From NCBI GenBank assembly GCA_947471985.1, contig CANIZL010000050.1, forward strand, positions 1 through 46,593: a DNA stretch of 46,593 nt, given 5' to 3'. The notes under the pieces are model-generated. The model did no database searches, was not told the DNA's origin, and saw only the letters and a program-made list of their open reading frames with translations. The translations under genes were made by a program, and so were the position numbers. Positions 1,049 through 35,675 of this stretch are shown here, piece after piece. The stretch comes from Verrucomicrobiota bacterium. Lineage in GTDB: Bacteria; Verrucomicrobiota; Verrucomicrobiia; Limisphaerales; UBA9464. The stretch's first letter is position 1. Each line of letters starts with the position of its first letter.

Positions 1049-1485
1049 GTGCCCTGCTGACGGACGCCCTGGCCGCGCTGCCGCACGGGCCGGAGTTCCG
1101 CTTTCTGGACCGACTGGTGTCGTTGGAGCCGGGGGTTCGTGGCACGGGGGAGTACACCGTGCGCGGTGACGAGGACTTTCTGCGCGGGCATTTCCCCGGC
1201 GCGCCCCTGCTGCCGGGCGTGCTGCTGCTGGAAGCGGCGGCGCAATTGGCCGGAGTCGTGGCGCAGAGTGATCCCGGACACGTCCCGCTCGCGGGCTTGA
1301 AACTGACGGCCCTGCGCGGGGCGAAGATTCTGGGCTCGGCCCGTCCGGGCGAAACGGTGGTGCTGGACGCCCGGATTTCCGCCCGCCTGGGAACCTTGAT
1401 CCAGGCCCAAGCGACGGCGGCGGTGGCCGGGCGGACGGTCCTGCAGTGTGAGGTGACCTTGGCCGGGGAGCTGCCGCCCGCGTAG
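1045..1485 (+). CDS. FabZ/ApeI-like 3-hydroxyacyl-ACP dehydratase
   Basis: This 146-residue hot-dog-fold protein carries the FabZ active-site block 'GHFPGAPLLPGVLLLEAAAQ'. His49 and Glu63 (numbering from 1045) match the catalytic His/Glu pair that dehydrates 3-hydroxyacyl-ACP to the trans-2-enoyl form. The chosen GTG at 1045 overlaps the LolA stop as GTGA, a classic coupling arrangement. A GTG at 1015 would add ten residues and overlap LolA by 34 bases. The length fits FabZ and the shorter ApeI/ApeP-type dehydratases. Its place after acyltransferase and LolA genes, away from lpxA, lpxD or other fab genes, argues for a role in a dedicated acyl or polyene pathway, but this is inference. Confidence 0.8.
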   Translation: MSALLTDALAALPHGPEFRFLDRLVSLEPGVRGTGEYTVRGDEDFLRGHFPGAPLLPGVLLLEAAAQLAGVVAQSDPGHVPLAGLKLTALRGAKILGSARPGETVVLDARISARLGTLIQAQATAAVAGRTVLQCEVTLAGELPPA

Positions 1486-1583
1486 GGCGCGACGGGGTGC
1501 TCGCGGGTCGCCGAATTGTTTTCTCCGCGGCTGGACCGTGGTTTGACACCCCGCCTCAGGCTTCCGAGTGTAATCCTCTTTTT

Positions 1584-3365
1584 ATGGCCGAGCCGAAGAC
1601 AAATGAGTTGATGGAGAAGATCGTTTCCCTCGGGAAACGTCGCGGGTTTATTTTCCAGTCGTCCGAGATCTACGGCGGACTCAACGGATTCTGGGACTAC
1701 GGCCCGTTGGGTGCGGAATTGAAGCGCAACGTCAAGGACGCGTGGTGGAGCACCATGATCCGTTTGCGCGACGATGTGGTGGGCCTCGAAGCCACCATCA
1801 TCATGCATCCGCAGATCTGGAAGGCGTCCGGCCACGTGGATACCTTCAGCGATCCGATGTGCGATTGCTTGCTCACCCGGAAGCGCTTTCGCGCGGACCA
1901 GGTCGATCCCCAGTCCGGCAATGCGTATAACTTTACCGGCGCCCGGGATACGGTTTCGGGCGGCGAAATGAACGAGCCCTACTCCGTGCTGCTGCCCGCG
2001 GGCAAACCACCGGAATCGGCCCGGAAAACGGCCATGGCGTACTACGCCCTGCGCGGGGTGACGCAGCCGGAACTGCTCGGCGAACGCGTCGAGGCGGTGG
2101 TGGATTCGCAGCGGTACAATCCGGAAAACGGCTCGCTGCTGACCGAACCGCGGCCCTTCAATTTGATGTTCAAGACCTACGTCGGTCCGGTGGCCGACGA
2201 GGACAACGTCGCCTACCTGCGGCCCGAGACCGCCCAGGCGATCTTTGCGCAGTTCAAGAACGTGGCGGACACCTGCCGGCAGAAGGTTCCGTTCGGCATC
2301 GGCCAGATCGGCAAGGCCTTCCGCAATGAGGTCACGCCGCGGAACTACATCTTCCGGTCCCGCGAATTCGAGCAGATGGAACTCGAGTTTTTCATCAAGC
2401 CGGATGAGGCGATTGAGGTCCTGTCCGGCACGGTGGCCAACGTGTCCGCCGAGGCGTGGAAAGGTGAGCCGCAGGCGGATTGGGGCTGGGAGGTCTGGCA
2501 CAAGTATTGGGTGGAACAGCGCGTGCGCTTCTACGAGGCCATCGGCTTGCCCCGGACGGCGTTTGAGGAGTACTGGCAGAAGCCGGAGGAGTTGGCTCAC
2601 TACGCCCGCGCGTGCGTCGATCTGTTGTACAAGTTCCCTTTTGGCACGCAGGAGCTTGAAGGCATCGCGGCCCGCAGCGACTTCGATCTAACCCAGCACG
2701 AGACCCATTCCGGCAAGGCGATGGGTGTGTTCGACGAGGAACTGCGGGCGGCGTGGGGCAAATTGGACGAGGCGCGCAAGGCGTCCCTGCGGGCCAATTA
2801 TGTGGCGGCCAAGACGGCGGCCGGCCTCAAGAAGGGCGCGACGGAAGCGGAGGCCGCGAAACAGGCCGAGGCCCTCGCCACGATCTTCTTCGAGAAGCTC
2901 GCCAAGGGTCAGTATCTGCCGCATGTCATCGAGCCGTCCGCCGGCGTCGATCGCCTGATCCTCGCGCTGCTGTGCCACGCGTACAGCGAAGTCACCACCA
3001 CGGATGAGAAGGGCAAATCCGAGACCCGCGTCATCCTGCGCTTCCATCCGCGCATCGCGCCGATCAAGGTCGGCATCTTTCCGCTGTTGAAGAACAAGCC
3101 GGAATTGGTGAAGAAGGCGATGGCGGTTCGCGATCTGCTCCGGCCGCACATGGCAATCTATTATGACGACGGCGGGGCGATCGGCCGTCGGTACGCGCGT
3201 CAGGACGAGGCGGGCACGCCGTTCGGCTTGACCATCGATTTCGACACCCTCGGCGAGAAACCGGAATTGCTCGACACCGTCACGCTGCGGCATCGCGACA
3301 CTGGGGCCCAGGAACGCGTGGCCATCGCGGATCTTTTGGGACGGCTGCTGCCGCTCATCCGCTAG
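1584..3365 (+). CDS. glyQS: Glycyl-tRNA synthetase (single-chain class II type)
   Basis: This 593-residue enzyme attaches glycine to tRNA-Gly. It is the homodimeric type, not the split alpha/beta GlyQ-GlyS type. The N-terminus has the family stretch 'RRGFIFQSSEIYGGLNGFWDYGPLG' in two adjoining parts, motif 2 is seen at 'FRNEVTPRNYIFRSREFEQ' (from about residue 246), and motif 3 at 'VIEPSAGVDRLILALL'. An anticodon-binding domain begins near 'RIAPIKVGIFPL'. The start is the ATG at 1584, which gives the normal 'MAEPKTNELMEKIVSLGKRR' N-terminus; an in-frame upstream extension to 1497 has no family resemblance. No clear ribosome binding site is visible. It faces the LMW-PTP/RpiB/GlyA gene across the DUF2127 gene, so glycine synthesis and glycine charging are neighbours. 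Confidence 0.97.
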   Translation: MAEPKTNELMEKIVSLGKRRGFIFQSSEIYGGLNGFWDYGPLGAELKRNVKDAWWSTMIRLRDDVVGLEATIIMHPQIWKASGHVDTFSDPMCDCLLTRKRFRADQVDPQSGNAYNFTGARDTVSGGEMNEPYSVLLPAGKPPESARKTAMAYYALRGVTQPELLGERVEAVVDSQRYNPENGSLLTEPRPFNLMFKTYVGPVADEDNVAYLRPETAQAIFAQFKNVADTCRQKVPFGIGQIGKAFRNEVTPRNYIFRSREFEQMELEFFIKPDEAIEVLSGTVANVSAEAWKGEPQADWGWEVWHKYWVEQRVRFYEAIGLPRTAFEEYWQKPEELAHYARACVDLLYKFPFGTQELEGIAARSDFDLTQHETHSGKAMGVFDEELRAAWGKLDEARKASLRANYVAAKTAAGLKKGATEAEAAKQAEALATIFFEKLAKGQYLPHVIEPSAGVDRLILALLCHAYSEVTTTDEKGKSETRVILRFHPRIAPIKVGIFPLLKNKPELVKKAMAVRDLLRPHMAIYYDDGGAIGRRYARQDEAGTPFGLTIDFDTLGEKPELLDTVTLRHRDTGAQERVAIADLLGRLLPLIR

Positions 3366-10282: not shown

Positions 10283-11317
10283 CTAGGTGATCGACAAAAT
10301 TCTGCCCTCAGGAACTGTTTCCGGAAAAGGGTACATATTGCCGGCTGATTTTAAGAAAAGCGCGGCCCGCTCGTCGCCCAACGATTCGAGGACATCGGAT
10401 TCAAGTTTTCGTCGGATACCCCGGGCCTCTTCCGGGAACGGCTTCAAGCGAAAGTTTACGCCCTCGACAATTCGAATTCCGGGCGTTGCAGCCATGTCCT
10501 CGACGATTTCGTCCGTGGGTTCCAGGTGTCGGCTCTCCTCAATTCGATAGCGATGCTGCGCCTCGGCGAGACTTGACGTGACCTGGGCCACTTCTGAAGG
10601 CGTCAGTTTCAGGGTTTTGATGAACTCTTCCGTAAGTACGTAGTTTCGGGATTCGGTGTCGGGCATCGTGATCGCTTCCAAGGGAATGCGGTTCAGAATG
10701 TTTTTGGGAACCCGTACGCTATCCGGCGATTCCAGTTGGGGGGTCGGCGTGGGTTGGGTCGCCAACGGTGCCGCTGCCAGTGTCGTCGCAATTGGCTCGA
10801 GGTTGCCGGCGATGCGGCCGGATGGACGTCCGGGGTCTGCGGCCGTGTTTGCTGCCACGGCGACGTTGGAACCAAGTGGGTCCTCCAATTGTCGCATTCG
10901 GTGGGCACGGACGGCAACAGTGCCAATGAGTAGGGATGCGGTCGCGGTCGCGACGACGAGTGCGGTTGGAGACGTCATAGCAGCTTTGAAGCTAAAACCG
11001 GGAGTAACCGCTGCAGCCTGCCACACCGCGCCCGCCACCGCATGGTTGGCCAGGCGGGTCGCAAGTCCGGCCGGTGCTACTTGATCGGCGTGTGCCACCA
11101 GAGTGGCCGTTATCGCCGTGGCGGTGGTGCTGATGCCACGGGTGGCCAGTGAGTCCCGGAGTCGGTCGAGGGCCCGGGCGACCCGCTTGCGCGCCGCTTC
11201 CTCAGACAGGCCGAGCGCGGTTCCCACTCGGGAAAGTTCCAGTCCTTCGAAATATCGAAGCAAAATGACATTCCTTTCGAGGCTCTGAAAGCGGTCCAGC
11301 GATTCCGCCGCCCCGCC
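10283..11317 (-). pseudogene. N-terminally truncated ECF-type sigma factor with membrane-anchored C-terminal domain
   Basis: The frame from 11317 (TGA upstream at 11318-11320) reads 'SLDRFQSLERNVILLRYFEG' and then 'LELSRVGTALGLSEEAARKR', a good sigma-70 region 4 helix-turn-helix. Sigma region 2, needed for -10 recognition and core binding, is missing: none of the upstream frames encodes it, and the opposite-strand gene at 11428 begins just beyond. After region 4 come an Ala/Thr-rich linker, one hydrophobic segment (about residues 100-119 from TTG 11263) and a C-terminal domain with 'LTPSEVAQVTSS', 'RLKPFPEEARGI' and 'VLESLGDERAAL'. Sigma factors with such tails occur in Verrucomicrobiota. The remaining 326 residues could still be translated from TTG 11263, but as a sigma factor the gene looks dead. 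Confidence 0.6.
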
Positions 11318-22809: not shown

Positions 22810-24000
22810 ATGAAACGATTCTTATTCCTCTTCGTTGCGGCCGTGTCGTCACTGGTCGCCGCTGACCTGAAATCCTTCAACGGGACCTGGGTCCTCCGCT
22901 CCGCCGAAATGGATGGCGATGCGGTGGGCAGTGATATCGTGAATTCCATCGTTCTGATCATGAAGGACGGGACTTACGATTTCGACGACGGCCAGAACCA
23001 TGCCAAAGGCACCTACACGATCGACCTGAATAAGACCCCGGCGACGATTGAGTCGAAGGAGGTGGAAGGGCCGAATGTGGGACGCACGCTGCTGGGGATC
23101 GCCGAGTTGACCCCGACGGGTATGCGGGCGTGTTACGCCCTGCAGGGAACCGATGCCCCGAAGGAATTCAAGACCAGCTCGGGCAGCGGCATGTTCCTGG
23201 CGAACTACCAGCGGAAGCCCGGTACGGCGCCGGCGGTGGCCCCGCTCCGGATCCTGCTGGTCGCGGGTGGCTGCTGCCACGATTACGCGCAGCAGAAGGA
23301 GATTCTGAAAAAGGGCCTGGAAGCCCGGGTGAACGCCCAGGTTGATTTCGTTTACAGCCCCGATGGCAGCACGCGACCCCCGCTCGCGATCTATGGCAAG
23401 CCCGGCTACGCCGAGGGCTATGACCTCGTGATCCATGACGAATGCGCGTCCGATATCAATGATCCCGCCGTCGTCGAAGGCGTACTCAAGCCGCATCGCG
23501 ATGGCATCCCGGCGGTCAACCTGCACTGCGCCATGCACTGCTATCGGATTGGGGATCCGAATGACCCGGCCAAGTCCGGCACGCCCCACGCGTTCTGGTT
23601 CGACTATCTCGGTTTGCAATCGAGCGGCCACGGGGCCCAGAAGCCCATCGCCATCACCTTTTTGGATGCCAGCAGTCCGATCACCCGGGGCCTGCCGGAG
23701 TGGACCACGGTGAACGAGGAACTTTACAACAACATCCAGGTTTGGGGCCGGGCCAAGCCGCTGGCGCGGGGCAAGCAGGACGCGGGCGATCGCCCGGGGC
23801 AAAACGACGCGACGGTCGTGTGGACTCACGAATACGGTGCCAAGAAGGCTCGCGTGTTTTCGACGACGCTCGGTCACAACAACGCCACCGTGGCGGATAG
23901 TCGTTATCTGGATCTCGTCGCCCGCGGCGTCTTGTGGAGCACCCACCACCTCAATGACGACGGCACCCCGGCCACCGGCTACGGAGCTGCCGGGAAGTAA
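22810..24000 (+). CDS. Exported TIGR03067 domain - ThuA-like domain fusion protein
   Basis: A 396-residue protein from ATG 22810 with signal peptide 'MKRFLFLFVAAVSSLVAA'. Residues about 20-135 match the TIGR03067 pattern of planctomycete/verrucomicrobial secreted proteins: 'LKSFNGTWVLRSAEMDGD', 'GTYTIDLNKTPATI' and 'MRACYALQG'. Residues about 148-380 are ThuA-like, a class-I-amidotransferase-like fold: 'LRILLVAGGCCHDYAQQKE', 'YDLVIHDECASDIND', 'VNLHCAMHCYR', 'VVWTHEYGAKKARVF' and 'TTLGHNNATV'. ThuA proteins are linked to trehalose and other sugar use, often secreted in this phylum. Fusion of the two domains suggests a single exported carbohydrate-processing unit; no activity is proven. Confidence 0.85.
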   Translation: MKRFLFLFVAAVSSLVAADLKSFNGTWVLRSAEMDGDAVGSDIVNSIVLIMKDGTYDFDDGQNHAKGTYTIDLNKTPATIESKEVEGPNVGRTLLGIAELTPTGMRACYALQGTDAPKEFKTSSGSGMFLANYQRKPGTAPAVAPLRILLVAGGCCHDYAQQKEILKKGLEARVNAQVDFVYSPDGSTRPPLAIYGKPGYAEGYDLVIHDECASDINDPAVVEGVLKPHRDGIPAVNLHCAMHCYRIGDPNDPAKSGTPHAFWFDYLGLQSSGHGAQKPIAITFLDASSPITRGLPEWTTVNEELYNNIQVWGRAKPLARGKQDAGDRPGQNDATVVWTHEYGAKKARVFSTTLGHNNATVADSRYLDLVARGVLWSTHHLNDDGTPATGYGAAGK

Positions 24001-24706: not shown

Positions 24707-25561
24707 TCAGCGTTTGACCGCCGCCCGCTCCTCCAGCCACAGCGCATCCTGCTTTCCGGTCGCATCAAACGGTTGCGTCCCGTAGGCGAATTTGACCGGG
24801 ATCTTCGTGCGGACACTCAGCCATTTGTGCACCTCGGCGTGGCCGTCGCAGAACGTGAAACTGCCCGCGCCGTTGTGGTAGGACGCCGGGATGTCACCCC
24901 ATTGGGCGGGGTTGAAACCATTGATGTAGTAGCCGTCGTTGATGGAATCCGCATGCTCGTCCAGCGTGCAGAACAAGGTGGCCGGGACCTGGATGGCGCT
25001 CTGCTTGATGAACTGCAAGCGGTCGCCGCCGGTCAGGGGATTGAGTCCGTTCGCACCCGAGGACGCCGGATCCTTGGACGTGTTGAAGAGTCCCAGGGAC
25101 GCGTTCATGGACTGGCTCCGATTGCGGAAGGGGAAGTTGGCCCGCTTTTGCTCGGCGCTCCGGTAGCTGTCGGCGGGGCAGCGGTAGATCCCCACGGCGG
25201 CCGCCGTGTACGGCGCCAGAACGCCGTTTTTGATCAGGGCCTGATTGGTGATTTCGGAAATGGCACTCCATTCCATCACGTTGTTGACCCAGTTGGCAAA
25301 GGACTTGTCGGCGACCGAGGCTCGGGTTTCGGAGACCCCGAAGTTGTTCGCCACGCGGTCATTGAAATCACCGGAATACAGGTGCCACCCGAGGAGTAAC
25401 TGTTTGCCGTTGTTCAAGCAGGCAATGCCCTGCGCCTTGGTCTTGGCCTTCGCCAGGGCGGGCAGCAGCATGCCGGCGAGGATCGCGATGATGGCGATGA
25501 CCACCAAAAGTTCGATCAGGGTAAAACCCAACGAACGCCGCAAAGGAAGACGAGTTTTCAT
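24707..25561 (-). CDS. Prepilin-like protein (type II secretion/pseudopilin N-terminus, DUF1559-like)
   Basis: A 284-residue protein from ATG 25561. The N-terminus '[19 protein letters not shown]' is a classic prepilin peptidase site (cleavage Gly12-Phe13, Glu at mature position 5) followed by a hydrophobic helix to about residue 35. The globular part has '[21 protein letters not shown]', '[10 protein letters not shown]' and the closing '[17 protein letters not shown]', a pattern shared by the large pseudopilin-like families of Planctomycetes and Verrucomicrobiota. These are thought to act at the cell surface, but most are uncharacterised. No secretion machinery genes are adjacent. A longer upstream start lacks any family match. 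Confidence 0.92.
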
Positions 25562-25733
25562 AGTGCGTCGCAAAACTGTGTGATGTGTGTCAAACACCTA
25601 CACCGAAGGACGGGGGCGGGCAAGCGGTATTGCGAGACAGTTCTCGCGGAAGTTGAGAGGAGTCAGCGTGGCCCTATGCGGCATCCAACTTGCCTTACCC
25701 ATCCCCGGTCGTCCTCTTGTTCGGACTACTGCC

Positions 25734-26478: not shown

Positions 26479-28443
26479 CTACGGCTGCTTTCCAGTCGGC
26501 GTCTCCGTGGCGACGGGCAGTCCCAGTTTCTGTCGTCCCGCATCGGTCAGATCATTGGAACTCCAGCCGGGATCCCAAGTCTGTTCGAAAACCACTTTGC
26601 CCACTCCGGGCACCTGCAGAAGCCGTTCGCGAATGGGGCGGGAAAAAGTGGGATGCACGGAGATCGAGCCCTGCGTGAAATAGCCCATCAGCGGGCGACC
26701 GCGATGCGGCATGGCCATCACCACGGACACCACGTTGCCGCGCACCCGTAGATCGTGGATCAATCCGAGGTCCACGACATTGATGTCCGCGGTATAAAGC
26801 TGGGCATCCTTGCAATCGCGCAGAGCGGCCCAGAGCAGCGGCTTGGGAATCGGGCTGTCGCCGGTTTCCCCGGCGCGCGCCAGATGGCCAACCGCGGTGC
26901 CGGGAGTCGACGGTGACGGGGGAATTGCGTCGTTGGGCGATACGACCAGCGGATGCGTGAGTTGACGCCGCAGGGCTTCGATCCGTTCCGCTCCGCCAGG
27001 TTCGGTGAAGGGCACGACGCTGTAGGCGTTCTTCTGGTGCAGGACCGCTCCGGCGGGGACGTGTTTGCCGGGGAGCGGATAGCGGCTCCAGACATGCCCG
27101 TGCCACCGGTAGAAAAGCTGCGGTACGCCGGTGTGTTTGAGGGGCGGCAAACCGTCGGCCTGGTGTTCGAGGAACAATCCAACGAAGGCGTCGTGGCTCT
27201 CGCGATTGATGAATCCCACGCCCCACAGATCCTCCTGACCCGCGGCGTCCACGTCGCCGGTCCGCAGTTTTCCGTCGGATCCCATCCAGACTTTTTCCGT
27301 GAACGATTGTCCGGAAAACACCCACTCGTCATCGCGCAGCGCCGAGGCCTCGAAGTCCTTCACCGCCTGCATGGAGCCAAACTTGTGAAACCAGGGCAGT
27401 CCGGCATAGAACCGGTATTCGACGTAGATATTCAGCCGGCTCGGCGAGTAGATTGGGTGCACCGGAGAGTGCGGAAATCCCCAGCGCCGCACGATGGTGC
27501 AAACCGGTCCGCGAATAACCTCGTAATCGGGACAGGTGTCCCAGAGGGAGATGCGCAGTTTCTGAAAATTGCCGGCGTCCACGTAATCGTGGGCCCAATC
27601 GATGCCCGGCGGTTCTCCGTGACCCTCGCCGCCGGAGAACAGCTCCAGCCCGTGTTCGCGCTTCAAGGTCAGTCGTTCGAGCTGTCCCGTCTGATGGGAA
27701 AGCGCGGCCTTGAAATGCTCGTTTTCGATATCCAGTCCGACGCCCTCGCCCCGGGTGGTGAGGTCGCTGGAATACTCCGGGAGTTCCGCGTCCGGGTTGC
27801 CGTAGAAAATTGCGTAGGTCTGCTTTTGCCGCGCGGCGCTGTCGGCCAGGAAGAGCACGCGACCCAATCGCTCGGTGCCGCGATGGACTTCGCCGTGGAT
27901 CTGGCTGGGAACCTCCTGCCCGGTGCCGTCGACCCACCGGGCGACCCGAACCTCGCGCGCGAGGGAGGTGACCTGATCGGCGGGGAACGAAAGCAGCAGT
28001 TCAACGGGCTCCGGTGTGTGAGCCTGCGCCTCCGTTTCGTCCAGGGTCACGAACTTCACGTAGCGCCAGCCCTGGGCCCACGTGCGCCCGGGTTCGGGGA
28101 GCGATGCGGTCGGATGGAACCGCCGCGCGGCGATCAGGGGCTCTCCGGGTCTTTCCTCTTCGGCCTGGGTTTGCAGAACCGTGCTGCGCAGCGAATGGGT
28201 CAGGGCGCGCGCCAGGCGATAGTCCTTCCGCTTCCAGGCGTCCGCGAGCAGGCGGAGTTTTTCTTCGAACGAATCCGTGCGCTCGGCCGCGGTCAACGAG
28301 ACGGAGGCCTCGGGGGGCGTGCTGGCGGGCACGTTGGTAGGAGCCGCACTGGGTCCCGCACCGTGCAGTCCCAGCGCCATCAGGGTCAAAACGCAGAGCG
28401 TGCGGGGGAAGGATTGGCGGATCGGGTAGAGCGAGGGTGTCAT
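26479..28443 (-). CDS. Exported mutarotase-like protein with C-terminal MIP18/DUF59-like domain lacking the conserved Cys
   Basis: A 654-residue protein from ATG 28443 with signal segment 'LCVLTLMALGLHGAGPSAA'. The middle, about 90-535, is beta-rich, with 'QTYAIFYGNPDAELPEYSSD', 'VGLDIENEHFKAALSHQTG' and 'VEYRFYAGLPWFHKFGSMQ'. This style recalls galactose-mutarotase-like domains of polysaccharide lyases and hydrolases. Residues about 538-650 follow the DUF59 (SufT/PaaD/MIP18) plan: 'RDCKDAQLYTADINVVDLG', 'GNVVSVVMAMPHRGRP' and 'PGVGKVVFEQTWDPGW'. The T-x-P-x-C-P cysteine used by Fe-S relatives is Arg583 here. An Fe-S assembly role is therefore unlikely, and the domain is predicted to lie outside the cytoplasm. 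It is the last gene of the run DUF1592, DUF1552, DUF1501, 69 bases after DUF1501. Confidence 0.8.
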   Translation of the reverse strand: MTPSLYPIRQSFPRTLCVLTLMALGLHGAGPSAAPTNVPASTPPEASVSLTAAERTDSFEEKLRLLADAWKRKDYRLARALTHSLRSTVLQTQAEEERPGEPLIAARRFHPTASLPEPGRTWAQGWRYVKFVTLDETEAQAHTPEPVELLLSFPADQVTSLAREVRVARWVDGTGQEVPSQIHGEVHRGTERLGRVLFLADSAARQKQTYAIFYGNPDAELPEYSSDLTTRGEGVGLDIENEHFKAALSHQTGQLERLTLKREHGLELFSGGEGHGEPPGIDWAHDYVDAGNFQKLRISLWDTCPDYEVIRGPVCTIVRRWGFPHSPVHPIYSPSRLNIYVEYRFYAGLPWFHKFGSMQAVKDFEASALRDDEWVFSGQSFTEKVWMGSDGKLRTGDVDAAGQEDLWGVGFINRESHDAFVGLFLEHQADGLPPLKHTGVPQLFYRWHGHVWSRYPLPGKHVPAGAVLHQKNAYSVVPFTEPGGAERIEALRRQLTHPLVVSPNDAIPPSPSTPGTAVGHLARAGETGDSPIPKPLLWAALRDCKDAQLYTADINVVDLGLIHDLRVRGNVVSVVMAMPHRGRPLMGYFTQGSISVHPTFSRPIRERLLQVPGVGKVVFEQTWDPGWSSNDLTDAGRQKLGLPVATETPTGKQP

Positions 28444-28512
28444 CCGAAGGGTAGAGCGGGCGGCGGCGGTTGGGGCCAACTCAGTTCCGCTGTTGGTCGC
28501 GAGTGGCGCTGT

Positions 28513-29946
28513 TCAAGCGCGGCGGGCGAGTTCCGGGATCGGTTGTCCATTGGCCACGAGGGGAATCGGGCGTCCCGAGAAATCCGGAATCGAAATCTCC
28601 GACGCCGCGATCCCGAGGTGTTGATAGATCGTCGCCAGGAAATCGCCCGGCCGGGTCGCCCGCTGCACCACGTCTTCGCCGTGTTTGTCGGTGGCCCCGA
28701 TCACTCCGCCCGTGGTGATGCCGCCCCCGGCCCAGAGTTGCGAGAACGCGCGCGGCCAATGATCTCGCCCCGGTTGCACGGTGCCGGTCACGCCGCTCGC
28801 CACACCCCCACCGCTGCTGGCCACCCGCTCGATCCGCGGCGTGCGACCAAACTCGCCGGTGACCACCACCAGGACCCGTTGATCCAGGCCGCGAGCATAG
28901 ATGTCCTCGATCAAGGCCGAGACCGCCTGGTCGAAATACGGGAGCCGGAATTGAAGCGCGTCGAACACGTGATGGTTCACCGCGTGATCATCCCAATTTC
29001 CCACACGACCGCAGAGCGGCCCGTCGAAAGTGGTGGTGATGATCTCGACACCGGCTTCCACCAGGCGCCGGGCCATGAGGCATTGCTGTCCCCATTGGTG
29101 GCGGCCGTAACGGTCGCGGATCCGGTCGGGTTCCTGATTGAGATCGAAGGCCTGGCGTGCGGCGGGGCTGGTGAGGAGGGCGAGCGCCTGGGCTTCGAAC
29201 TCGTCAATCGCCTTCATCGTGCCGGATTGATCAATCGCCCGATCCAGTCGATCCAGGCGTTCCCGCAATTGGATGCGATCCTGCAGGCGGCCGGCCTGGG
29301 CGGCGTCGTGCAGGCCGATGTTTGGGACTTCGAAATGCGGATCGTTCGGATCGCCCGTGATGGCAAACGGGCCGTAGGCGGGATTGACGTACGCGGAGCC
29401 GGCGATGGTGAAGTTGTCGTAACGCACCACCGGGTTGACGCCGATGTAATTCGGGAGCGTGCGGGATCGATCGGCGCGCAGGTAATTGGCGACGGTCATC
29501 CAGTCGGGAAACACGGGCTTCTCCTTATCCTGGGCGTCCGGATCGCCGGTGAGCATTTGCAGGGAACCCGCGGGGTGACCGGCCCCGGTGTGGGTCATGG
29601 AGCGCAGCAGTGTGAACTTGTTCGCGATCCGGGCGTGGCGGGGCAGCAGCTCGCAGAGTTGGAGGCCGGGAACGACCGTGGAAATGGGATTGAAAATACC
29701 CCGGATCTCACTGGGGGCATCGGGCTTGGGATCGTAGGTCTCCAAGTGCGAGGCCCCACCGCGCAGCCAGACGAGAATGATGGCGGTTTTGGGAGTGCGA
29801 CTGGTGCCGCCGGCCTGGGCCCGCAATTGCAACAAACCGGGCAGGGAGAGACTCGCAAATCCGGCCAGGCCGGCGCGCAGAAATTCCCGCCGGGGCAGGG
29901 GCCCGGAGCAAACCCGCGGTTGCGGAGCTGGCGGATGATTCAACAT
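28513..29946 (-). CDS. DUF1501 family secreted protein (Tat signal)
   Basis: A 477-residue protein from ATG 29946. The N-terminus 'LPRREFLRAGLAGFASLSL' is a twin-arginine signal. The family pattern follows: 'AIILVWLRGGASHLETYDPK', 'HTGAGHPAGSLQMLTG', 'ITTTFDGPLCGRVGNWDDH', 'VVVTGEFGRTPRIER' and 'GRDHWPRAFSQLWAGGG'. The fold belongs with the alkaline-phosphatase/sulfatase superfamily, but the catalytic nucleophile is not certain. DUF1501 is greatly expanded in Planctomycetes and Verrucomicrobiota, usually beside DUF1549/DUF1553 or DUF1552/DUF1592 partners, as here. Tat export suggests folding, possibly with a metal, before transport. Function is undetermined. Confidence 0.93.
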   Translation of the reverse strand: MLNHPPAPQPRVCSGPLPRREFLRAGLAGFASLSLPGLLQLRAQAGGTSRTPKTAIILVWLRGGASHLETYDPKPDAPSEIRGIFNPISTVVPGLQLCELLPRHARIANKFTLLRSMTHTGAGHPAGSLQMLTGDPDAQDKEKPVFPDWMTVANYLRADRSRTLPNYIGVNPVVRYDNFTIAGSAYVNPAYGPFAITGDPNDPHFEVPNIGLHDAAQAGRLQDRIQLRERLDRLDRAIDQSGTMKAIDEFEAQALALLTSPAARQAFDLNQEPDRIRDRYGRHQWGQQCLMARRLVEAGVEIITTTFDGPLCGRVGNWDDHAVNHHVFDALQFRLPYFDQAVSALIEDIYARGLDQRVLVVVTGEFGRTPRIERVASSGGGVASGVTGTVQPGRDHWPRAFSQLWAGGGITTGGVIGATDKHGEDVVQRATRPGDFLATIYQHLGIAASEISIPDFSGRPIPLVANGQPIPELARRA

Positions 29947-29985
29947 GGCTGACCTCGCGGAAGCTTCCCTCCCACGCACTTCGGA

Positions 29986-30126: not shown

Positions 30127-31467
30127 TCAGACTCCGGCCAGCCGCTCGTCGGCGTCGCCGAAGCGCGGGAGCTTTACGTCCATCCGGTCCAGAAGCGACA
30201 GGTACAGACTGCACAGCTTGCGGTTGTCGTCGCCCGACTGGCGGTAATCCAGCACCCGGCCCGTGGCGAGCGCGCCGCCGAGGCCGCCCAACGTCAGCAA
30301 CGGCAGTTTGGTGTTATCGTGCCGTTCCCCGGACCACATGTTGGACAAAAATAGCAGGCAGGTGTGATCGAGCACGGTGCCTTCGCCTTCCGGCATGGCG
30401 TCCAGGCGGCCGGCGAGGTACGCGAGATTGCTGACGTAGTACCGCGAGATGCGCTCGTAGGCGTCCGAGAGATCGTTGTGCGAGGCGGAATGATGGGCGT
30501 CGCGCACGTTGAGGAAGGGATAGAACAACCCGGACAAATCGCGGCAGAGCACCAGGGTGGCGACCCGCGTTTTGTCCGTTTGAAAGGCAAGGGCCACGAT
30601 GTCGCACATCAGCTTCATGTGCTCGCGGATGTCCTCGGGCAAGCCGTTGTCGGGCCGCTTCATGGTGATGAGCGGCCGGCCCCGGTCCCGCGCCCGGCTC
30701 GCGGCTTTCGCCTGCTCACCGCGCAGACCGTCCACCCGCTTTTCCACTTCCCGGACACTGGAGAGATATTCGTCCAGGCGCCGATTGTCTTCGGAACTGA
30801 CCTGGCGGCTGAGGGTCGAGAGATCGCCTTTGACGCGATCGAGGATGCTCTTGGCCCGCTGATTGCCGCGGTTTTCGAACAAGGCGTCGAAGGCGAGCGA
30901 CGGATACACCTCCATCGGCACCGGCGAGTCCGCACTCTGCCAGGAGATGTGCGAGCTGTAGGCCATGGAGAAATTGGACTCGTGATAACCGGTGATCGGT
31001 TGTTCACAACCCAGCACGAGACTGGACTGCAGCGTCTCCGGACCGGTGTGATTGGCCAGCACCTGGTCCATGCTGATGCCGCCGCGCAGGACCGCGCCCT
31101 TCATCAGCGGCATGCCCGAGAGGATGTTGCCCGTCTGCCCGGGATGAATGCCGACGCCGACCGCGGGCCGGTTGTAGAGCCCATTGATCACATTGAGCTT
31201 GGCGCGAAACGGCGCGAGGGGCTCGAGTGAGCGGCTCAATTCCATGTTGGCGCCGCTGCCCTTGGCCCACCAGTGATCGCCGTTGATGCCGTTGCCCATG
31301 AACAGGGCGGCGAAGCGTTTGGGAAACGGTGTCGCCGCGTCCGTCACCACCGGGGTGTCGGCGCCCCAGACCCGGATCGATTCCAACCACGGCAGGGTCA
31401 TGGTAACTCCGGCGCCGCGAAGAAACGTGCGGCGGGAAAAGGGCCGGGGGGCAGAAGTAGGGTGCAT
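30127..31467 (-). CDS. DUF1552 family secreted protein (Tat signal)
   Basis: A 446-residue protein from ATG 31467, only six bases after the DUF1592 stop. The signal is 'FSRRTFLRGAGVTMTLPW'. Family blocks are 'KRFAALFMGNGINGDHWWA', 'LNVINGLYNRPAVGVGIHPG', 'GISMDQVLANHTG', 'SMAYSSHISWQSADSPVPME' and 'LFLSNMWSGERHDNTKLPLL'. DUF1552 proteins occur almost only with DUF1592/DUF1587-type partners in Planctomycetes, Verrucomicrobiota and some Acidobacteria, and the pair is assumed to work together outside the cytoplasm. The very tight spacing supports co-translation. No catalytic residues are established for the family. Confidence 0.94.
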   Translation of the reverse strand: MHPTSAPRPFSRRTFLRGAGVTMTLPWLESIRVWGADTPVVTDAATPFPKRFAALFMGNGINGDHWWAKGSGANMELSRSLEPLAPFRAKLNVINGLYNRPAVGVGIHPGQTGNILSGMPLMKGAVLRGGISMDQVLANHTGPETLQSSLVLGCEQPITGYHESNFSMAYSSHISWQSADSPVPMEVYPSLAFDALFENRGNQRAKSILDRVKGDLSTLSRQVSSEDNRRLDEYLSSVREVEKRVDGLRGEQAKAASRARDRGRPLITMKRPDNGLPEDIREHMKLMCDIVALAFQTDKTRVATLVLCRDLSGLFYPFLNVRDAHHSASHNDLSDAYERISRYYVSNLAYLAGRLDAMPEGEGTVLDHTCLLFLSNMWSGERHDNTKLPLLTLGGLGGALATGRVLDYRQSGDDNRKLCSLYLSLLDRMDVKLPRFGDADERLAGV

Positions 31468-31473
31468 GGGGTG

Positions 31474-34400
31474 TCAGTTTTTGGCCACCGTCTCGGGGCT
31501 GCGTTTGTTGAGGAACTGCGGACTCGTCACGATGCTTTCCACCAGGCTGTTAAAGCGATAACCATCAGCCCGGAGTTTCGCCTGCATTTCCCGGACCAGT
31601 GGTTCGTCGCCGAGAATGAGCGTCCGGCCCAGACCGTAGGCCAGCATTTTACGGCACAGATTGTCCACGAAATCCGGCTGCCGATGTTGTCGGATATAGG
31701 TAATCAATCCGGGAAGTCCCGCCCCCTCCGAACCGCCGGGGAATTCCGCCTGGGTGTCCACCGGATGGCCGGCCAGATCCACGTCGCGTCGTTCGCCCAC
31801 GGGACCGTAGCCTTCAAACACCAACCCGAGGGAATCGAAGCGGGCATGGCATTCGGCGCAGCCCACCCGATCCCGATGCGCGGCGAGCGCCTGGCGCAGG
31901 GTGCGATCGCCGAGGGCCTTTTCGTCGCGGGGCAGTTCCGGCACCTGAGCGGGCGGCGGCGGAATGCGTTCGCCGAGCACACGACGCACCACCCAGTAGC
32001 CGCGTTTGACCGGACTGGTGCGCAGGCCGGGGGAATTGGCGGTCAGAAAGGCCGCCATGGGCAACACTCCACCGCGTCCGTACGCCCGGGCATTCTCCAC
32101 GTGGACCCACGTGTTGGTCGAGGGCGGCACCGGAGTCATGCCGTAGTGCCGCGCCAGCGGGGCGTTAACGAACGTGTCCGGGGCGTCGAGGAAATCGAGC
32201 ACCGATCGATTGCGCTGGGCGACATCGACGAAGAAGCGAAGGGGTTCTTCAAACATCGCCTGGCGCAGTTCGTTATTGAAGACGGGGAAGCGTTCGCGAT
32301 CGACGCTGTTATGTTCTTCGAAGCGTCGGAAGTCGAGCCAGTTGCCGGCGAATTCGGCGGCGAAGTTTTGCACGCGCGGATCCTGCAGCAGGCGTCGCGC
32401 TTCCGATCGCAGCACGTTTGGCCGATGCAAATCGCCCGCCGCAGCCCGCGCCCGCAAGGCTTCGTCGGGCGCACTGGCCCAAAGGAAATAACTGAGGCGG
32501 CTGGCGAGCGCCTGATCCGGGAGGGGTTGCACGGCCCGGTGTTCGGGTGGGTTGACGTGCGAGCGGACGCTGGTCCGGGCCCGGGAAGGCGTGGCGGTCC
32601 CGGCGACCAGGTCCATGCGGAACAGGAACCCGGGCGACATCAAGACCCGGGCGACGCAATCGCGCATGGCCTCCTCATGATTCATGGCGTTGGCTTCGCT
32701 CGATTCCCGGTAGAATGTGCGGAGGTCCGCCACTTCCGCCACCGACAACGGCCGGCGGTAGGCCCGGGCGGCGAAGGCCTCGAGGGTGGCCAGGTGCGTC
32801 GGCTCGGCGGCGGCGCGGAGCTGCTCGACCCGGGCGATGTCCGCCGCCGCGGTGACAAAGTGTTCCTGGATCGCTTTCTGCGCGGTCTCACTCGCGTTGT
32901 TGCGGCGGGCCTTGGCCAGATACAGCTCGGCCAGTCCCCGAATCTTCTCCGGCGTGGTGACCGATTTGTCCTCCGGTCGGTACGGATCGAATTCCGGGTC
33001 GCGCAGGTACGCGGAGTCGGTGCGCTCGAACCAGACCAGACTCGTGTGCATGCGCTGCGGCACCGAGGCCAGGCAGTTGAATTCATCCCACAGCCGGTCG
33101 AGTTCCTGTCGACCAGCGGCATCCAGGATCAGGTCGTAGAGCGGTTGATCGTCCCGGAAGTAGCCGGTCATGCTGTGAAATCCGGCGCTCAACAGGCGGC
33201 CGGCGTTCTCCTGCTCCTTCTCGGCATCGAGATAAACCCGGCCACGTTCAGTAATGTAAAACGCGTCCGGAAAAATGTCGGCAAAGCGCGCGAAGGCGGC
33301 CGCGTAGTGGGCGCGCTCGACCGGATCCGCCGGGACGATCAACTCCGGATCGTCCCGATGCTTGCGGGCCGCGGCCATCCGGGCGGTGGCGGAGGATTCT
33401 CGCGTGATCAACGTAGGGGCCAACGAAAGCCCCCCTTTCTTTACCGCCTCGGGTGTGGGCGCCTGGACATGGCCGGGGGGGCGACGACTCGGGGCATTGG
33501 TTTTGGACGCCGGGGGCGTGGCGGCGACGGCGGCACTCGCGGGTGGATTGGTGCTGGATCCTTCAATCCGTAGTGCGGCGGGATCGAAACGACGTCGATT
33601 CGCAGCCATCTGGCGGTCCTTCCACAGAACCAGCGTCGGCGAGCCGTCGTGGATCGTCGGGGCTTGCAAATTCGGCACCGCCGGGATGATGCCTTCGCGA
33701 ACCCGCAGCACGTAATCCCGCAGCGCCCCGCACGCCGGACGAACGTCGGGAGCGACGCCGTTGGCCGGGGCCGGCAGCGCCCGCCATTGGGCGCGGAGTT
33801 TGGCCAGTGGACCGTAATCGTCTGCACGGTTGGTCAGCAGCGACCAGACGTGCCCGAGGTATTTGGGGCTCAGCTTCAACTCGACGGCCACCTCGGGCAG
33901 GGTGGCGCTTCGATGTCCCAGTGCGGCGCGATGTTGGTACCGCCACGCGGCCAGAAAATACTCGGCGAAATCCGTGGGCTGGCGCCGATAAAAATCCACG
34001 ATGCGAAACACGGCCCACTTGTCGCGATCCGTATCCGCAACCACCGGGTGCGGCGCAAAGGTGAAGCCGTTGGGTTGCAGCGCGAGGTGGGCGGCCACTT
34101 CCTGGGCGGCCGCGAGATATTTGGACACCAGCGCGGGCGATAGCGCGAGCGATTCCTCGGAATTGTCGAAGCCCGCCTGGTTGGCCGGATCCACGGGGAA
34201 CGTGCGGGTCGGGCGGATATCCACGCCGGTGAGATCGTGGATCGTATGATTGTACTCGGCGTTGCTGAGGCGCCGGGCGGGCAGGGGGCCGGGATCGCCG
34301 GCGTTCCGCCGAGCTTCGCGATCGCGCAGGGATTCGATCCAGGCGATCACGCCTTGCCGGGCGGCGGGGGCGGGTTGTTCCCGGGATTTCTTGGGGGGCA

Positions 34401-34668
34401 TGTCGCCGCTGCGCAGCCGTTCCAGCACCAGCTCCCAGTGCGCGTAGTCCGCGGCCACGGTTTCCACCGTTTTGAACGGGCTCAAATCAAGATCGCCTTT
34501 GCGGGTGTCAGCGTCGTGACAGGTGAGGCAATAGTTCTCCAGAAAAGGCCGGACCGTTTGCTCAAAGGCCGGCTCCAAGCCCCGTCGGGTTGCCGACGCA
34601 CGTTCGGCGGCCAGCGCGGTGGCACCGACCGTCCCGGCGGCGGCCAGGGCGAAGACAACCCGCTTCAT
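31474..34668 (-). CDS. Exported multidomain DUF1587/DUF1595/DUF1592/DUF1588/DUF1585 protein with c-type heme motif
   Basis: A 1064-residue protein from ATG 34668 with signal peptide 'VVFALAAAGTVGATALAAE'. A planctomycete-type cytochrome c region has 'ENYCLTCHDADTRKGDLDL' (Cys47, Cys50, His51) and 'RSGDMPPKKSREQP' with a candidate methionine ligand. DUF1587 follows at 'RRLSNAEYNHTIHDLTGVDI'. A roughly 400-residue central region contains a Pro/Ala-rich linker. Then come DUF1595 ('FAARAYRRPLSVAEV'), DUF1592 ('SRLSYFLWASAPDEAL', 'NWLDFRRFEEH'), DUF1588 ('KRGYWVVRRVLGERIPPPP', with a second CxxCH 'CAECH') and DUF1585 ('LAYGLGRTLILGDEPLV'). Such proteins are thought to be exported redox or polymer-processing factors; the function is undetermined. 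DUF1552 follows after six bases. Confidence 0.94.
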   Translation of the reverse strand: MKRVVFALAAAGTVGATALAAERASATRRGLEPAFEQTVRPFLENYCLTCHDADTRKGDLDLSPFKTVETVAADYAHWELVLERLRSGDMPPKKSREQPAPAARQGVIAWIESLRDREARRNAGDPGPLPARRLSNAEYNHTIHDLTGVDIRPTRTFPVDPANQAGFDNSEESLALSPALVSKYLAAAQEVAAHLALQPNGFTFAPHPVVADTDRDKWAVFRIVDFYRRQPTDFAEYFLAAWRYQHRAALGHRSATLPEVAVELKLSPKYLGHVWSLLTNRADDYGPLAKLRAQWRALPAPANGVAPDVRPACGALRDYVLRVREGIIPAVPNLQAPTIHDGSPTLVLWKDRQMAANRRRFDPAALRIEGSSTNPPASAAVAATPPASKTNAPSRRPPGHVQAPTPEAVKKGGLSLAPTLITRESSATARMAAARKHRDDPELIVPADPVERAHYAAAFARFADIFPDAFYITERGRVYLDAEKEQENAGRLLSAGFHSMTGYFRDDQPLYDLILDAAGRQELDRLWDEFNCLASVPQRMHTSLVWFERTDSAYLRDPEFDPYRPEDKSVTTPEKIRGLAELYLAKARRNNASETAQKAIQEHFVTAAADIARVEQLRAAAEPTHLATLEAFAARAYRRPLSVAEVADLRTFYRESSEANAMNHEEAMRDCVARVLMSPGFLFRMDLVAGTATPSRARTSVRSHVNPPEHRAVQPLPDQALASRLSYFLWASAPDEALRARAAAGDLHRPNVLRSEARRLLQDPRVQNFAAEFAGNWLDFRRFEEHNSVDRERFPVFNNELRQAMFEEPLRFFVDVAQRNRSVLDFLDAPDTFVNAPLARHYGMTPVPPSTNTWVHVENARAYGRGGVLPMAAFLTANSPGLRTSPVKRGYWVVRRVLGERIPPPPAQVPELPRDEKALGDRTLRQALAAHRDRVGCAECHARFDSLGLVFEGYGPVGERRDVDLAGHPVDTQAEFPGGSEGAGLPGLITYIRQHRQPDFVDNLCRKMLAYGLGRTLILGDEPLVREMQAKLRADGYRFNSLVESIVTSPQFLNKRSPETVAKN

Positions 34669-34814
34669 GGTTCGGAAATCCCGTTTTGGTGCACGGCGAT
34701 CACCCTTGCGAAACAGCTGCGAGGCGTCCAGTCGAATCTCCCCGTCCATCGAGCAATCAAGCGGAGGGGTCGGTTGATGCGGTGCCGTCGCTTTCGTTCG
34801 CGTCACTGCGGGCC

Positions 34815-35675
34815 TCACCAATCCAGCACGGCCGTGACGTAGTTAATGGGCGAGTGATCGGCCAGTTCCCGGGAAATGACCGCGCCCGGTTGCCGGGCCT
34901 GGTGGGCGAGATACTCCAGCGATGCGTGCCGGCGGTCCGCGGCCACGGCGGTCGGATCGGGCGATACGACCACCCGACGGTGGCGGTCGATATAGTGCAG
35001 CGTTCCCGTGGAAACGTAGAGGAGTGCCCGCGGGGGAACCCGGGTCACCAGATCACAGCAGTCGACAAAACGGGTATGCTGCACGAGGCGTTGGGATTCT
35101 GCGAAGGCGGCATTGCCCACGCGCGGCGACCCAAAGGTGTAGAGTCGAGCCCCGGGCAGCCAACTGGCCAGCAGGGTGGCCAAGGCCGCGCCCAGACTGT
35201 GTCCGGTCAGCAGGAGGTCGTGCGCGGCGCCTGGCCCGGTAACTTGGTTTTGGATTTGCCCGGCGAGATCGTCTTTTAGCAAGGCTTTCGCAAATCCCCG
35301 GTGCACCTCGCCACACGCCGCTCCCGTACCATCTGCCCAGGGAATCCGAATAAAGTCGGCATCGGTCAAAAGATCGGAAGGGTCGGCTGGCTCGGTACCC
35401 CGGAAGGCCACGACGTGCCGGTTGTCGTCCGGCCGCCGTGCGATAAACACCTGAGTTCCCCCGTGGTCATAGCTGAAGGTTTGCTTCAACTGGAAGCCCG
35501 CCCGGCCCAGATACCCGGCCAGTCGGTCGGGCTCCCGGACGTAGGCCAAACGGGACATCTCGGCGCAGAGGGCGGCTTCACTGGGAGGTGCGCCGGTGCC
35601 GAGTTGAAAGAAATCGTCGGCCGCACCCGGATGAAACAGGGATTGGCGACTGGGATCGTAGGAACGCTCAGGCAT
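34815..35675 (-). CDS. Lipase class 3 / alpha-beta hydrolase
   Basis: A 286-residue alpha/beta hydrolase from ATG 35675. The nucleophile elbow is 'LLLTGHSLGAALATLLA' (Ser160). Before it come 'VVAFRGTEPADPSDLL' and 'GEVHRGFAKAL'; after it 'LYTFGSPRVGNAAF', 'FVDCCDLVTRVPP' with the candidate Asp, and 'ADHSPINYV' with the candidate His. This order matches fungal-type class 3 lipases (triacylglycerol or related esters). No signal peptide is seen, so it may be cytoplasmic or use an unusual route. It lies 146 bases upstream of the DUF1592 gene on the same strand and could be the first gene of that run. Confidence 0.9.
   Translation of the reverse strand: MPERSYDPSRQSLFHPGAADDFFQLGTGAPPSEAALCAEMSRLAYVREPDRLAGYLGRAGFQLKQTFSYDHGGTQVFIARRPDDNRHVVAFRGTEPADPSDLLTDADFIRIPWADGTGAACGEVHRGFAKALLKDDLAGQIQNQVTGPGAAHDLLLTGHSLGAALATLLASWLPGARLYTFGSPRVGNAAFAESQRLVQHTRFVDCCDLVTRVPPRALLYVSTGTLHYIDRHRRVVVSPDPTAVAADRRHASLEYLAHQARQPGAVISRELADHSPINYVTAVLDW

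Follow-up and report, generated by a model that had tools for sequence, protein, structure and literature searches.

A beta-sandwich fusion protein family with a rewritten SufT-type DUF59 domain, in which an invariant arginine takes the place of the conserved cysteine

The gene at positions 26479..28443 (minus strand) of the analysed window, by which we mean the whole stretch of 46,593 nt, encodes a protein of 654 amino acids that combines an N-terminal beta-sandwich with a C-terminal DUF59 domain. This is a real architecture, absent from the literature searched, and its SufT-type domain has been rewritten. The literature search, which covered mostly titles and abstracts, left subscription papers largely outside and is not proof of absence, returned neither an exported or Cys-less DUF59 protein nor this fusion. 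DUF59 domains are tied to iron-sulfur (Fe-S) maturation via a single conserved cysteine, yet their mode of action is not settled. With its retained fold, an invariant arginine instead of the cysteine and a location that is apparently in part outside the cytoplasm, this family represents a natural test of what the DUF59 scaffold can do. What the computations establish is the fusion, the fold of the DUF59 domain and, in general terms, that of the N-region, the family-wide loss of the cysteine and the invariance of its replacement, together with the clade-wise signal-like segments and the link with one DUF1501 subfamily.

The minus-strand frame starts with an ATG at 28443 and ends with the stop codon at 26479-26481; an alternative in-frame TTG start at 28479 would give 666 amino acids. 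An antisense open frame of 999 amino acids (window 26953-29952, plus strand) overlaps the fusion and DUF1501 genes and is likely a high-GC artefact. The minus-strand gene is preferred over it, since the homologues support this frame. A search of genome contigs resulted in 23 loci with best segments 55-75% identical, two of which are truncated (L016 and L018), and the first search of relatives added eight copies in 7 of 95 other genomes, the G004 copy being the same record as L001. Without the two truncated loci and the record met twice, 28 distinct full-length homologues with 55-76% identity to the window protein remain. In L093 and L099 (G520) the fusion is split across two frames by a frameshift or sequencing error, and L019 contains, downstream of its full gene, a 78-aa frame (10366-10599, plus strand) that aligns with the terminal part of the DUF59 tail (81 bits) and perhaps represents a partial duplication.

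The C-terminal residues 533-642 (26518..26847, minus strand) form a genuine DUF59 fold in the predicted structure, which superimposes on 3cq2 with a VIA-align Z-score of 13.0 (rmsd 2.1, 96 aligned residues, 34% identity). The match of the window protein to PF01883 is beyond chance (E = 9.5e-4) and with 19.8 bits lies just under the curated cut-off of 23.5 bits. Four NCBIfam models of the PaaD/SufT type match with E-values from 7e-7 to 2e-4, all far below their own cut-offs; the scores of 27.7 bits for TIGR02945 (cut-off 143.4) and 27.1 bits for TIGR03406 (cut-off 202.6) place the protein under the NCBIfam SufT threshold. DUF59 chains in the PDB were matched with E = 5.7e-5 by the single sequence and with E = 3.8e-9 by a family profile. 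The tail scores 52.6 bits with a profile built from 23 SufT-like proteins, compared to 5.4 bits for the best of 500 shuffles of the same tail. Each of the 20 proteins in alignment A1 matches PF01883 at E ≤ 1 (the best with 4.7e-6) and likewise three SufT/PaaD models (the best with 1.7e-11). Among divergent homologues, L091 scores over the PF01883 cut-off (33.2 bits) and L090 under it (16.1 bits). The original prediction of a DUF59/MIP18-like tail is hence borne out by the shuffle control and the fold match, and both motifs quoted for it are present, NVVDLGLI at residues 555-562 and PGVGKVVFEQTWDPGW at residues 612-627.

With SufT/DUF59 proteins (PF01883; TIGR02945, TIGR03406) and PaaD, the tail shares the fold, the motifs NVVDLGL and PGV..V.....W.PxW, and the aspartate of D-x-E. 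In contrast to them, it possesses Arg for Cys, Gln for Glu, Pro for Thr and a longer loop, it sits behind an N-region of 450 residues, and it stays under the cut-offs of all four matching NCBIfam models. The canonical TxPxCP is replaced by the loop PHRGRP (residues 579-584; 26692..26709, minus strand) with R583 at the position of the cysteine. This holds for all of the 48 tails that could be read, among them that of the window; two further rows stop at contig ends. The cysteine is present in each of 23 SufT-like proteins, of which the window's genome contributes one and its relatives 22; they are the top-ranked ones among the DUF59-only matches from the first search of relatives. A cysteine-bearing SufT-like protein coexists with the fusion in the same genome (L025). 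In alignments with TM0487, R583 stands opposite the cysteine of TTPMCP and the loop contains no gaps, whereas MAFFT opens a gap just before the cysteine when SufT-like proteins are aligned, so the exact residue that partners the cysteine varies by aligner. An alignment-free check leads to the same picture: the window tail has no cysteine at all after C544, and only 3 of the 48 tails have one there, located just before the last helix and never in the loop. The predicted exchange of the cysteine for Arg583 is thereby confirmed, and none of the readable homologues keeps a cysteine in the loop.

The loss of the cysteine is part of a larger replacement. A patch of D, E, T, C and P is described for SufT in the available text of one study (PMC9045647), and these residues correspond to D546, Q548, P579, R583 and P584 in the fusion. 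From D, E and T, the aspartate alone is kept, with Q548 for E and P579 for T in 45 of 45 rows. All 45 full rows agree in D546, Q548, P579, G582 and R583, and 44 of them in P584. According to the accessible parts of the respective reports, the cysteine occurs in each of 761 SufT homologues (PMC4982691), and SufT of M. tuberculosis requires it to interact with its partners (PMC9045647). The latter protein is also reported to bind neither Fe nor a cluster (PMC9045647). A different cysteine, C544, lies two residues before the conserved aspartate. The 45 tails that keep it contrast with the three most divergent of the 48, which have Val there, and most SufT-like proteins read have the same cysteine (C[YF]DPEI); C544 therefore looks inherited and not compensatory, although its retention in 45 tails would still allow a thiol role. 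The replacement and subsequent strict conservation of the patch is a pattern of new function. A recent decay of the tail is ruled out by the invariance of the replacement residues, and the 106 invariant positions within residues 54-645 of the 45 full rows (including 12 R, 8 W, 7 E, 6 D and 3 H), patch included, likewise argue against decay.

The N-region (residues 54-505; 26929..28284, minus strand) is predicted to consist of two helices followed by a beta-sandwich of the GH38-C-terminal/mutarotase-like type. It is joined to the tail by the conserved linker LARAGETGDSPIPK (residues 521-534; 26842..26883, minus strand), in which L521, R523, G525, E526 and K534 are invariant (45 of 45 full rows). 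The AF2 models are of moderate confidence, with a mean pLDDT of 70.4 for the full length and 71.6 for the N-region alone. The highest VIA-align Z-scores were obtained with GH38 alpha-mannosidases (up to 14.2), followed by PL26 (12.8), GH174 (11.8) and aldose-1-epimerase-like proteins (11.1). In GH38 enzymes, the catalytic domain is the N-terminal half. The best GH38 matches begin at about residue 96-140 and cover the C-terminal half of the GH38 chains with approximately 8-14% identity, leaving the N-terminal catalytic domain unmatched; the approximately 40-85 residues between the signal and the start of the match offer no room for such a domain. The PL26 exo-rhamnogalacturonan lyase and the GH174 endo-fucanase are partial matches with approximately 8-11% identity and are likened by fold only, and with the aldose 1-epimerase (galactose mutarotase) superfamily the N-region shares the general fold. 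Non-enzymatic sandwiches score nearly as high, namely the periplasmic domain of YidC (Z approximately 10-10.7) and a PBCV-1 capsid protein (Z 11.0), and the fold alone therefore does not indicate an enzyme. The suggestion that about 450 residues of carbohydrate-active-like sequence precede the DUF59 domain is thus supported by the beta-sandwich fold, while the label "mutarotase-like" stands for the fold but finds no counterpart in Pfam: at E ≤ 1 the aldose 1-epimerase profile is absent and no Pfam family matches the N-region except for a sub-threshold hint of DUF4861 (E = 0.17), on which the literature search revealed nothing relevant. The PDB sequence searches, with the single sequence as well as with the family profile, matched the tail only and gave no relative of the N-region.

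Since the N-region has no sequence match to a named family, the case for an enzyme function draws on fold and conservation. Its 82 invariant positions, 38 of them within residues 267-378 and many charged or aromatic, resemble an active site and, as a pattern of sequence conservation, favour an enzyme. The most conserved stretch is modelled worst, with block-mean pLDDT values of 36-63 for residues 271-330 in the presence of linker and tail and of 25-34 for residues 274-333 without them. The rise in pLDDT with the tail present might be a weak hint of a contact between tail and sandwich. In G432 (L095), two tandem proteins (16-1221 and 1224-2987, plus strand; the first starts at the contig end) resemble the N-region (E = 9e-19 and 1e-15) and are without a DUF59 tail; they have no convincing Pfam or PDB relative.

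Residues 1 to approximately 34 of the window protein (28342..28443, minus strand) form a probable Sec-type signal peptide. The best 12-residue hydropathy mean is 2.3, with the core TLCVLTLMALGL, and pLDDT is below 50 for residues 1-55. Signal calls in the family were made by hydropathy alone, with a hydrophobic segment of mean ≥ 1.5 upstream of the domain counted as signal-like; 45 rows were classified in this way and a quick tree was calculated for 47 rows. The clade of the window comprises 13 rows (SH-aLRT 96), all of which possess a signal-like segment, the weakest being that of L082 (1.51). Six rows of this clade contain a RR[KT]FL Tat motif. A four-residue insert after the loop is present in 12 of the 13 rows and requires one change; the thirteenth row, L016, ends before the insert site. 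In contrast, all 26 rows of the sister clade (SH-aLRT 90) begin with M-x-E seven residues before the domain, and no scorable row reaches 1.5 (best 1.46 in L023; three rows are too short). Outside both clades, L065, L087, L088 and L091 have signal-like segments and L017 and L090 have none; L085 likewise belongs to neither of the two main clades. The 45 classified rows require a minimum of three changes of signal state.

Judged by these N-termini, the proteins of the window's clade would be exported by Sec or Tat, whereas those of the sister clade apparently stay in the cell. The original prediction of an exported protein is therefore supported for the 13-row clade of the window but does not extend to the family. 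The same is true of the proposed repurposing of the fold outside the cytoplasm: the strictly conserved replacement speaks for repurposing, but its extracellular part does not fit the 28 of 45 classified homologues that are without a signal. Since these 28 carry the same loop with the same arginine, the rewriting of the loop is independent of location. An explanation of the cysteine loss as a consequence of export was rejected, as the signal-less clade shows the same loss.

We tentatively favour, with chances that we consider close to even, the explanation that the fusion is a carbohydrate-active protein in which a SufT-derived domain became a non-Fe-S accessory module. The N-terminal beta-sandwich, of the galactose-mutarotase-like/GH38-C-terminal class, would probably bind and chemically alter an acidic or otherwise anionic sugar. 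The C-terminal domain would stem from a DUF59 ancestor of the SufT type and would no longer serve Fe-S maturation; an equally invariant patch with Gln for E, Pro for T and Arg for C has taken over from the former D, E, T, C, P. Most likely the tail packs on the beta-sandwich and contributes to the substrate site a loop that is basic, anion-binding or structural; a role as binding module, as originally suggested, is plausible. In the window's clade the protein would be sent out via Sec or Tat and may function next to the DUF1501 protein, and in the sister clade the same protein would stay in the cell. It is somewhat unlikely that the tail serves structure or dimerisation only, stabilising the protein without contact to substrate or metal. 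Retention of the fold along with loss of the reactive patch would fit such a role, and M. tuberculosis SufT is reported, in the part of the study available, to homodimerise (PMC9045647). However, the invariance of Q548, P579, G582 and R583 in 45 of 45 rows would exceed the needs of a scaffold, and the two tandem proteins of G432 illustrate that the sandwich can do without the tail.

An improbable alternative is a sugar-binding or surface protein without enzymatic activity, in which one or both domains bind a ligand. It would agree with the GH38 match lying outside the catalytic half and with the YidC and PBCV-1 sandwiches at Z-scores of 10-11, but the 82 invariant positions of the N-region, with their concentration of 38 within residues 267-378, look like an active site. 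Even less probable is a tail that still acts on a partner in Fe-S or metal maturation and uses C544 or the new loop as a substitute for the canonical cysteine. The descent from a SufT-like DUF59 domain, the presence of D546 in all tails and of C544 in 45 of 48, and the six Tat motifs, which fit a folded export, are in line with it, as are a radical-SAM (Fe-S enzyme) match below the cut-off beside L032 (22.3 of 29.5 bits) and cytochrome-c-like neighbors at L027 and L059. Against it, the canonical cysteine, reported from all 761 SufT homologues (PMC4982691) and as essential in M. tuberculosis SufT (PMC9045647) in the accessible text of both sources, is missing in 48 of 48 tails, Q replaces E and P replaces T in 45 of 45, C544 seems to be an inherited residue, and no Suf gene was found among the 40 neighbour proteins scanned. 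Beyond the favoured explanation of a carbohydrate-active protein with an accessory module, one could go further and assume that a SufT-type DUF59 domain left Fe-S biology and now contributes an invariant arginine loop to the active site of a new carbohydrate-enzyme family, some members of which are exported, with a dedicated DUF1501 partner and an anionic sugar; this fuller version is possible, though less likely than not.

Within the window's order, the N-region profile finds matches in 31 of 320 genomes. Without G432 there are 30 such genomes, and the tail was seen in 29 of them. Among 288 genomes spread over the phylum, a strong match was obtained only in the window's own genome, next to two weak and short ones. 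The named loci are labelled Verrucomicrobiota, Acidobacteriota, Planctomycetota and, in one case, Proteobacteria (L023). The last label is doubtful, because length and score are the same as for the copy in G488, a genome of the window's order. A plasmid search gave two records, in which the tail only was matched.

DUF1501 is a family of unknown function. One of its subfamilies, defined here by E ≤ 1e-140, is the likely partner of the fusion. In the window, the corresponding gene (28513..29979, minus strand) is located directly upstream of the fusion gene and encodes a Tat-like RREFLR near its start. The DUF1501 proteins upstream of the fusion in the window, L001, L061, L101, L102 and L106 share 79-86% identity among themselves. 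Two copies in L002 (upstream of the fusion) and two in L011 (8-9.5 kb downstream) show 59-62% identity to the window's copy. For four others, including those directly upstream in L011 and L023, the identity to the window's copy is 36-38%. The window's genome contains 57 DUF1501 matches over the cut-off. The subfamily occurs in 36 of the 320 genomes and in 23 of the 30 fusion genomes (Fisher p = 5e-20, inflated by genome relatedness). Counted by genus, 10 are shared between sets of 16 and 17 out of 118, with 2.3 expected (p = 1e-6, again inflated by relatedness). Both genes lie within approximately 600 bases in 11 of the 23 genomes that have both. Seven of the 30 fusion genomes are without the subfamily, 13 of the 36 subfamily genomes are without the fusion, and the A2 search of six such DUF1501-only genomes gave no match. 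A DUF1501-like gene is found no more than 450 bases upstream on the same strand in 9 of 41 loci, two of these genes overlapping the called start; some of the nine are other DUF1501 subtypes, and some loci have little or no upstream DNA. A sequence search of the PDB gave no convincing relative of the partner. Its association with a probably sugar-active protein provides a handle on DUF1501. In two genomes the DUF1501 protein is more conserved than the adjoining fusion (85% versus 76% in G004, 80% versus 62% in G003).

A conserved operon across the family was ruled out, because the neighbours vary by locus apart from DUF1501 and GntR/FCD-type genes. The latter occur directly upstream in some Acidobacteriota (confirmed by Pfam in L008 only, and clustered with the L012 and L022 genes). 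Sugar-related neighbours are a sulfatase (L061), an FGE-sulfatase domain (L004), an esterase-like protein (L007), a GH141/beta-helix protein (L019), a BNR protein (L105) and the GntR/FCD regulator of L008. Many of the 40 scanned neighbour proteins have no link to sugars, for instance an MFS transporter, TrmO, an isochorismatase, an adenylate cyclase and an aminotransferase. Further upstream in the window follow a DUF1552 gene (30127-31467) and a gene for a PSCyt1/PSD multidomain protein (31474-34821), both assigned by Pfam, on the minus strand and of interest as context only. In freshwater Verrucomicrobia, PSCyt genes are often located near sulfatase genes, and the authors of that study, who note that no function of PSCyt proteins is known, suggest that they take part in carbohydrate metabolism (PMC5615132). 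This PSCyt/sulfatase context would fit a sugar role of the fusion without proving it. The end of a class 3 lipase-like gene (34815-35675, minus strand) overlaps the start of the PSCyt1/PSD gene, and a ThuA-domain protein (22810-24000, plus strand) and a pilin-like N_methyl/DUF1559 protein (24707-25597, minus strand) are encoded near the fusion gene.
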